The translations under genes and the position numbers were made by a program. From assembly GCA_025060535.1 (NCBI GenBank), contig JANXCA010000007.1:1-45219 (forward strand): DNA of 45,219 nucleotides. The letters run 5' to 3'. This document shows, in pieces, positions 2,820 through 6,347 of this stretch; position 1 is the first letter of the stretch, and each line of letters opens with the position of its first letter. The notes beneath the pieces are model-generated. The model had not been told where the DNA came from, ran no database searches, and was given only the letters and a program-made list of their open reading frames with translations. This stretch comes from Endomicrobiia bacterium (GTDB lineage: Bacteria; Elusimicrobiota; Endomicrobiia; DTEH01).

Positions 2820-3323
2820 ATGAAGTGTCCTTTTTGTGAAGGAAATGATACTTATGTAGTAGATACAAGAACTCTAAAAGATGCTTTAGCTATTCGTAGA
2901 AGAAGATTATGTAAAAATTGTCAGAAAAAATTTACTACTTATGAAAGAATAGAAGAGCCAACTATTAATGTTATAAAATCTGATGGTAGAAGAGAACCAT
3001 TTGATGTTAATAAGATAAGAGAAGGAATTTTAAAAGCAATAGAAAAACGTCCTGTAAGTAGTGAAGAGGTTGAAAGAATAGTTGCAGAAGTACAACAAGA
3101 AATATCTAAGAGGTTTGTTTTAGAAGTTCCAAGTTCTCTTATAGGAAAAATTGTATTAGAAAAACTCTTTTATGTAGACCCAGTAGCTTATGTAAGATTT
3201 GCATCTGTGTATTATCAATATGACAGTATTGATAAGTTTCTTAAGGAGTTAAGAGAGCTTAAAAAAAGATATTTACAGAAAGATAAAAAAAAGAAAGGTA
3301 ACAAAGATGCAACAACAAAATAA
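2820..3323 (+). CDS. nrdR: Transcriptional repressor NrdR (zinc ribbon plus ATP-cone)
   Basis: NrdR senses ATP/dATP and represses ribonucleotide reductase operons. The N-terminal zinc ribbon has C3, C6, C31 and C34 (CPFC ... CKNC), followed by the family signature AIRRRRLC and FTTYER. The ATP-cone spans roughly residues 48-138. The protein has 167 residues, slightly longer than usual because of a lysine-rich C-terminal tail. The last 17 bases overlap the next gene in another frame. No ribonucleotide reductase gene is in the window, so its targets are elsewhere. Family assignment is firm. Confidence 0.95.
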   Translation: MKCPFCEGNDTYVVDTRTLKDALAIRRRRLCKNCQKKFTTYERIEEPTINVIKSDGRREPFDVNKIREGILKAIEKRPVSSEEVERIVAEVQQEISKRFVLEVPSSLIGKIVLEKLFYVDPVAYVRFASVYYQYDSIDKFLKELRELKKRYLQKDKKKKGNKDATTK

Positions 3324-4455
3324 TAATCAACAAAATAATAATGAGATAATAGAAAATCTCTATGATGAGATAAAATCTTCAGGTTATAACTTAGAAGAAA
3401 TAGTTTCTGGTGATGTAAGGCCTTCTGAAGAAATAAAAGAAAAGATAAATAAGCTAGTTTCTTTGGATCCTAATTTTTATTCTAATTTGCTTTCTAAGCT
3501 TGTATCTGAAGAATTTGATGAAGAATTGGCAAAGAAATTATGGTTTGAAATACTTGAGCATAAATATAGAATCTCTGAGAAATTAGGCAGAAATGTTGGA
3601 ATTAGAGTGGCAACTTTAGACTATCTTGAGAATATAAAAAAGATAATTAAAACTCCTAAAATCATAGAGGAAGAAGAATTTATAAAGACATTAAAATTAG
3701 CTACAAAAGACCCACTTACCGGTTTATATAATCGTAGATATATGTTTGATTATATGAGACAACTAATAAGGAAAAAACAAAACTTTTCATTAGCATTTTT
3801 AGACTTAGATGGATTTAAAAAGTACAATGATAAGGAAGGTCATCAAGCTGGAGATATAATTCTGCAGGAATTCGCTGCTTTTTTGAAATTAAACTTTAAC
3901 GACGAAGATAAGTATTTGGCTGGAAGATATGGGGGTGATGAATTTATCCTATGTTTAGTAAATATAGACAAAAGAACAGCACAGGATATTTTAGATAAGT
4001 TTAGACAAGAAATTCAAAAGCAATTTTCTGAAATAAAAATAACAGTAAGCATAGGAGTTTGTGAGTTTAACTCTGATCCTGAGAAATCTGATGTGAAAGA
4101 CTTTGATGAGCTTATTGAAAAGGCTGATGAACTTCTATACAGAGTAAAAGAATTTGGAGGTAATAAAGTATTTAGGTTGAGGACTATCCATTTTTACTAC
4201 TATCCTGAAAATAATTATACTCCTAAAGAAGTGGCAGTAGTTGGAGATTTTAACAATTGGGATAGAAAAAAGGGGCAGATGGTGTTTGATCCTCAACAAA
4301 AACTATGGTATAGAAAGATGTTAATAAAGCCCGGAGTTTATAAGTATAAATTTTTAATAGATACCAACATATGGGTAGCTGATAAAAATGCTAAATTTTT
4401 TGCAGATGATGGTTTTGGTGGGAAGTGTTCAGTGATAACTGTAGCAGAAAGATAA
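3307..4455 (+). CDS. Diguanylate cyclase-type GGDEF protein with C-terminal glycogen-binding (CBM48/AMPK-type) module
   Basis: This 382-residue protein has three parts. Residues 1-120 are a helical, unrecognised region that opens with a Gln/Asn-rich run. Residues 130-292 form a GGDEF domain (DPLTGLYNRR, FLDLDGFKKYND, then GRYGGDEF with GGDEF at 209-213), intact and so probably able to make cyclic di-GMP. The RxxD inhibitory site expected just upstream is absent. Residues 293-382 resemble the carbohydrate-binding domain of AMPK beta: VAVVGDFNNWD with W318, then YKYKFLIDTNIWVAD with K348 and W356 at the sugar-binding positions. There is no signal peptide, so it should act in the cytoplasm. It starts inside nrdR. 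Linking glycogen sensing to c-di-GMP is my inference from the domain pairing. Confidence 0.88.
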   Translation: MQQQNNNQQNNNEIIENLYDEIKSSGYNLEEIVSGDVRPSEEIKEKINKLVSLDPNFYSNLLSKLVSEEFDEELAKKLWFEILEHKYRISEKLGRNVGIRVATLDYLENIKKIIKTPKIIEEEEFIKTLKLATKDPLTGLYNRRYMFDYMRQLIRKKQNFSLAFLDLDGFKKYNDKEGHQAGDIILQEFAAFLKLNFNDEDKYLAGRYGGDEFILCLVNIDKRTAQDILDKFRQEIQKQFSEIKITVSIGVCEFNSDPEKSDVKDFDELIEKADELLYRVKEFGGNKVFRLRTIHFYYYPENNYTPKEVAVVGDFNNWDRKKGQMVFDPQQKLWYRKMLIKPGVYKYKFLIDTNIWVADKNAKFFADDGFGGKCSVITVAER

Positions 4456-4576
4456 TTAATGTTTAAAATAAAGAGATTAAATTATTGTTTCTCTTGTATT
4501 TAAAAAAATATTTTTGTATTTTTAAAAACTTTAAAGATTTTGACCTATTATTTTACATTAGAGGGGGTATAAATAT

Positions 4577-4759
4577 ATGTCAGAGATACTTGTAGTGGTA
4601 AGCAAAATTAAAAAAATGGTAAAAGAACAAGGTTTAAGAACAGGAGAAGGTTTTATAGAGGCATTGTCTAAGAAGGTAGAAGAGATGGTAAAAAATGCAG
4701 CAGAAAAGGTAAAATCAGAAGGTAAGAAAAAGACGCTTGGTGCTGAAGATTTGATGTAA
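4577..4759 (+). CDS. Bacterial histone-fold protein (HBb-like, single histone fold)
   Basis: A 60-residue basic protein that looks like a lone histone fold: helix 1 at about 2-17 (ILVVVSKIKKMVKEQG), a long helix 2 at about 22-48, a KKKTL loop near 51-54 and the start of helix 3 (GAEDL). This matches, from memory, the Bdellovibrio-type bacterial histones (LVVxSKVK ... GRKTV.A.D), which dimerise and bind DNA as chromatin components. It is not an HU/IHF protein: the beta-arm is missing. The gene has a strong Shine-Dalgarno (GAGGGGGT, 4561-4568, 8 bases before ATG) and its own 121-base upstream region, which suggests separate, high expression. A weak inverted repeat AAGAGA/TCTCTT (4471-4476 and 4490-4495) sits upstream. 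The kinase gene begins 19 bases downstream. Confidence 0.82.
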   Translation: MSEILVVVSKIKKMVKEQGLRTGEGFIEALSKKVEEMVKNAAEKVKSEGKKKTLGAEDLM

Positions 4760-5822: not shown

Positions 5823-6347
5823 CTAATCATCCCATTCTAAGACTGGGTAGTTGTTTTTATAAACAACTTTAGTTTTATAAATGGGTTTTACAATTTCATC
5901 TGGTTTAAACCAAAGTTTTATTTCTCTTTCAGCAGATTCTTCCGAATCAGAGCAATGAATTACATTTTCAATAATTCCTTTTTTATTTATTCTACCATAA
6001 GCTCCTCTTATTGTTGTAGGATCTGCTTCAAGAGGATTAGTTGCACCAGCTATTTTTCTTACTCTTTCTATAGCATCTTCTCCTTCATATACAAACACTA
6101 ATATTCGTTCATATTCAGGGCCATAGATTTTCCCTGAAAAATACTCATATAAATCATTAAAAAAAGGTTTATCTACAAGATGAGCATAATGTTTTTCTGC
6201 TAATTCCCTTGATACTTTTACTACTTTAGCTCCTATTATTCTCAACTTAGCTTCTGATAAACGAGTTAAGATGTTACCTGTGAGTGATTTTACTAAAGCA
6301 TCTGGTTTTATTATTACTAAAGTATATTGGTGTTTTTTGTTTTCCAT
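5823..6347 (-). CDS. ndk: Nucleoside diphosphate kinase
   Basis: Transfers the gamma-phosphate of ATP to (deoxy)nucleoside diphosphates through a phosphohistidine. The active-site histidine is H131 in NVIHCSDSEESAEREI; TLVIIKPDAL at 9-18 and ATNPLEADPTTIRG at 102-115 are family signatures. At 174 residues it is longer than the common 140: there is a small insert near 72-81 and a C-terminal extension of about 25 residues ending in EWDD. It is the only protein gene on the minus strand. A minus-strand promoter at 6426-6398 and an AAGGT ribosome site (plus-strand 6355-6359) precede the ATG. Confidence 0.96.
   Translation of the reverse strand: MENKKHQYTLVIIKPDALVKSLTGNILTRLSEAKLRIIGAKVVKVSRELAEKHYAHLVDKPFFNDLYEYFSGKIYGPEYERILVFVYEGEDAIERVRKIAGATNPLEADPTTIRGAYGRINKKGIIENVIHCSDSEESAEREIKLWFKPDEIVKPIYKTKVVYKNNYPVLEWDD

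Follow-up and report, generated by a model that had tools for sequence, protein, structure and literature searches.

A probable HBb-type histone of the bacterial dimer group in Elusimicrobiota

The window analyzed here is the whole stretch of 45,219 nucleotides of contig JANXCA010000007.1 from an Endomicrobiia bacterium of the phylum Elusimicrobiota. Its forward strand carries a short open reading frame that starts with ATG and encodes a protein with a predicted histone fold. The gene and the DNA immediately upstream of it comprise the following features:

4456-4576, forward strand: spacer of 121 nt between the GGDEF gene and the histone gene; neither its length nor its sequence is conserved, and promoter and terminator scans gave nothing above chance
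4561-4568, forward strand: Shine-Dalgarno-like GAGGGGGT, 8 nt 5' of the ATG; close relatives have a purine-rich site at the same place
4577-4759, forward strand: single-fold histone gene, 60 aa, very probably of the HBb or 'bacterial dimer' type, based on the open reading frame, the HBb match (8fvx, 8cmp), the structural model and purifying selection

The adjoining gene (3307-4455, forward strand) encodes a fusion protein, a diguanylate cyclase (GGDEF) that carries an AMPK-type glycogen-binding domain (AMPK1_CBM) at its C-terminus, and a homologue of it occupies the same place in genomes G002 and G003. In the comparison of upstream DNA among the window and genomes G001-G003, the gap to this GGDEF gene is ~45 nt in G002 (locus L024) and 33 nt in G003 (L025), so that roughly 75-90 nt of the spacer are private to the window's genome. 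The spacer contains 3 promoter-like sites versus 2.8 expected from shuffled sequence, which is the chance level; the terminator scan of the spacer found none, and no Rfam family matched it. An earlier note on this DNA had described a control region of 121 bases belonging to the histone gene. The gap itself is present, but a private control region was rejected on the basis of the comparison with G001-G003 and the promoter, terminator and RNA-family scans, and a dedicated regulatory region for the gene is not supported. Expression of the histone would probably depend on a nearby upstream promoter or on read-through from the GGDEF gene. Many histone relatives have the canonical GGAGG as their ribosome site, which is more canonical than that of the window's histone gene.

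The identification of the protein as an HBb-like histone rather than HU, also proposed in the earlier note, is borne out by the sequence, profile and fold matches, in all of which HBb ranks first. The best match in a PDB sequence search is HBb (Bd0055) of Bdellovibrio (E=1.3e-8), and a profile of 81 rows matches HBb in the PDB with E=7.7e-17, followed by HTkC and HLp. The Pfam family PF00808 scores 15.4 bits, below its gathering cut-off of 21.4. A search of NCBIfam with the window histone gave no match, and thus both libraries would leave it unnamed. No protein of its own genome matches PF00808 above the cut-off, and the HU/IHF family PF00216 is absent among the Pfam matches of the window histone. 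The AlphaFold2 monomer model based on 81 relatives (pLDDT 88.6) has helices at residues 8-17 and 26-48 and a one-turn helix at 56-58; built on 18 rows, the model was of insufficient quality (pLDDT 69.6) and the resulting fold matches carried no meaning. This predicted succession of helix, long helix and one-turn helix superposes on Bd0055, the comparison that had been suggested, and the top Foldseek matches of the 81-row model are the HBb structures 9ezz, 8fvx and 9f0e (TM 0.82-0.89), followed by HLp, HTkC and then other histone folds. The best Foldseek E-value of 1.3e-3 is modest, as expected for 60 residues. A different fold and a closest match to a non-histone family were both looked for, and neither was found.

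The closest solved relative is therefore HBb of Bdellovibrio bacteriovorus (PDB 8FVX, 8CMP, 9EZZ, 9F0E), with 41% identity in the fold alignment. The two proteins have in common their length, fold, short alpha2, one-turn alpha3 and hydrophobic N-terminus, as well as S9-K10, K12, the KT of loop L2, and D58. The window protein consists of a single histone fold without extra domains, matching the length of the HBb group, and the short alpha2 (residues 26-48) with a truncated alpha3, a trait of that group, is present in the predicted model. The archaeal nucleosomal histones HMfA and HMfB have a similar KT...ED in L2 and the histone fold at lower similarity; they differ by a longer alpha2 and a three-turn alpha3 (PMC10627809), and the window histone falls below the Pfam threshold for their fold. 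We consider the gene very probably to be the Elusimicrobiota version of the HBb (Bd0055) 'bacterial dimer' histone, most likely vertically inherited, where membership in the HBb group, originally defined through sequence clustering, means here that HBb is the best match among solved structures.

The elements expected to contact DNA were compared with those of HBb, and residue conservation was counted over 76 Elusimicrobiota sequences:

4598-4627, forward strand: alpha1, residues 8-17, with S9-K10 and K12/K13/K16, from predicted secondary structure and conservation
4631-4645, forward strand: loop L1, residues 19-23 (GLRTG), one residue shorter than in HBb; R21 in 76/76 sequences
4652-4720, forward strand: central long helix alpha2, residues 26-48, from the predicted model
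4721-4750, forward strand: loop L2, residues 49-58 (GKKKTLGAED), one residue longer than in HBb; residues 56-58 form the one-turn alpha3

The DNA-contact positions of HBb, which include S9, K10 and K12 (PMC11317129), are mostly retained in the window histone (S9, K10, K12, K52 and T53). Conservation of alpha1 is nearly complete (S9, K12 and K16 in 76/76 sequences, K10 in 75/76), as is that of L2 (K52, T53 and D58 each in 76/76, E57 in 75/76). The position of the RD-clamp Arg (K51) is occupied by Lys in 74/76 sequences and by Arg in 2/76, while the K-T and D58 of the RKT...D motif are retained; the Lys at the clamp position could pair with the Asp. Because T8, R57 and the clamp Arg (R51) of HBb are replaced by Val, Glu and Lys, respectively, the binding geometry could differ. 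In L1, an Arg takes the place of an Asn of HBb. The changes in the two loops are not strictly linked, since three relatives (from Lindowbacteria, from Brocadiia and from an unnamed bacterium) combine a short L1, R21 and K51 with an L2 that lacks the added residue.

These differences raise the possibility, which we regard as tentative, that the Elusimicrobiota histones form a separate functional subtype of the bacterial dimer histone, with rebuilt DNA-binding loops that would hold DNA differently from HBb. Under such a reading: i) the invariant Arg of L1 is possibly the equivalent of the 'sprocket' Arg that is absent from HBb, and ii) the longer, Lys-rich L2 lacks the clamp Arg, and the L1 Arg perhaps reaches into the minor groove. 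A sprocket Arg is not a conserved feature of bacterial histones (PMC10627809). R21 is aligned with an Arg of HTkC in the profile alignment, and the direct profile alignment with HMfB places L1 ambiguously; the equivalence of R21 with the sprocket Arg is thus inferred from the HTkC alignment. The lineage-specific loops of this clade appear to be little described.

The similarity of the window histone to HLp of Leptospira perolatii (PDB 9QT0), a bacterial face-to-face (FtF) histone, suggests an alternative in which it would form tetramers that wrap DNA. HLp has the same short histone fold, its L1 is as short as that of the window histone, and together with the archaeal FtF histone HTkC it ranks next after HBb in both sequence and fold. 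However, the tetramer residues R49, N53 and R55 of HLp are aligned with K44, E48 and K51, HBb scores higher, and Elusimicrobiota are placed under bacterial dimers in PMC11390915. HTkC (PDB 9F2C) resembles the window histone in its fold and in having an Arg at the corresponding position of L1 (MRVS versus LRTG in the window histone), but its L2 contains GRKT, its L1 is longer, and it also scores below HBb. The FtF alternative is unlikely. In the absence of the face-to-face tetramer signature, a DNA-bending dimer, in place of a tetramer, would be the best reading of the sequence.

Histones were found in 81 of the 295 Elusimicrobiota genomes sampled, representing 54 of 90 genera. The named relatives are mostly assemblies of Elusimicrobia and Endomicrobia, the nearest being JANXDG010000045 (SKYB98). 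In a tree of 89 rows, which has 60 columns only and inner forks largely without resolution, the 81 phylum-type rows are separated from the eight others by a branch with support of 100/99. This pattern fits, and does not prove, vertical descent of an Elusimicrobiota histone clade with repeated loss. Two large families of mostly small genomes (f3 and f13) have no histone carriers in the sample and have HU in nearly all genomes; their lack of histones possibly reflects losses in host-associated groups. Genome G038 encodes a second, divergent histone with the canonical GRKT (L021:1501-1671) beside the phylum-type histone, and weak second matches occur in G131 and G282. Phage and plasmid collections gave no match and a mobile or phage origin was rejected; PADLOC gave no match, and a LeuS scan of viral contigs added nothing.

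The contrast with HU that was implied in the earlier note is weak. HU is present in 274/295 genomes of the phylum, and the window's own genome encodes two HU/IHF-family proteins (C158 and C193) elsewhere than the histone. Replacement of HU by the histone is thereby ruled out. This also differs from L. perolatii, which lacks HU.

The genes 3' of the histone, encoding a dNMP kinase-like protein and a dCMP deaminase, start between 19 bases and ~2.5 kb after it. This arrangement, which had been taken as a feature kept by the lineage, is limited to the window's family, and a functional link with deoxynucleotide genes was therefore rejected. The end of the dCMP deaminase gene is separated by 4 bases from that of a nucleoside diphosphate kinase gene on the opposite strand (5823-6347, reverse strand). 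Neighborhoods vary between families. Of the 80 loci that were fetched (L041-L120), 53 have nuoA 0.3-1.4 kb downstream of the histone gene on the same strand, separated from it, where examined, by a ubiE-like or other methyltransferase-like gene. These loci are mutually related and hence do not represent 53 independent events.

The nuoA linkage, the retention of two HU-family genes in the genome and the absence of the histone from many members of the phylum would all suit a histone-fold protein with a specialized local role, e.g. as a regulator or partner protein, instead of a general nucleoid protein. In contrast, none of the 53 linked loci comes from the window's family, in whose genomes a search for nuoA gave no match, the neighborhoods are unlike across families, and the basic contact residues are retained everywhere. 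We consider such a role improbable.

The histone gene is real and under purifying selection, as follows from its low dN relative to dS, its close orthologues and its phylum-wide matches. It is present in one copy in its own genome (235 contigs, 88% complete), its orthologues in the nearest genomes have 93%, 82% and 76% identity, and by the NG86 method dN against these three is 0.06-0.15 and dS 0.8-1.8. A spurious or decaying reading frame, as might be suspected from its shortness, the AT-rich surrounding DNA and the unmet Pfam and NCBIfam thresholds, is effectively refuted by the orthologues free of internal stops in the 81 carrier genomes, the low dN/dS and the confidently predicted fold.

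By analogy with HBb, for which pairing via alpha2, minor-groove contacts and non-specific bending and compaction have been described (PMC11317129, PMC10627809), two chains of the dimer histone would pair via antiparallel alpha2 helices, setting L1 of one chain beside L2 of the other. Such dimers may bind DNA at the minor groove without sequence preference, with contacts by alpha1 and the L1-L2 pair, and may bend and compact it. The two HBb studies are in conflict on whether DNA is bent or sheathed as a straight duplex (PMC11317129, PMC10627809). The histone would share nucleoid organization with the two HU/IHF-family proteins, and a chromatin role, argued from HBb, is plausible.

Bacterial histones are rare, occurring in 1.86% of genomes (PMC10627809), and those with solved structures found here are two, HBb and HLp. 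Elusimicrobiota histones have already been published (PMC10627809, PMC11390915). The adjacency of their genes to nuoA appears to be little described, and the histone literature searched makes no mention of it. The retention of the histone as one clade across much of the phylum, alongside HU, supports the view that bacteria have used histones over long periods, and the loops of the Elusimicrobiota proteins provide a natural variant for testing which residues set the hold of the dimer on DNA.
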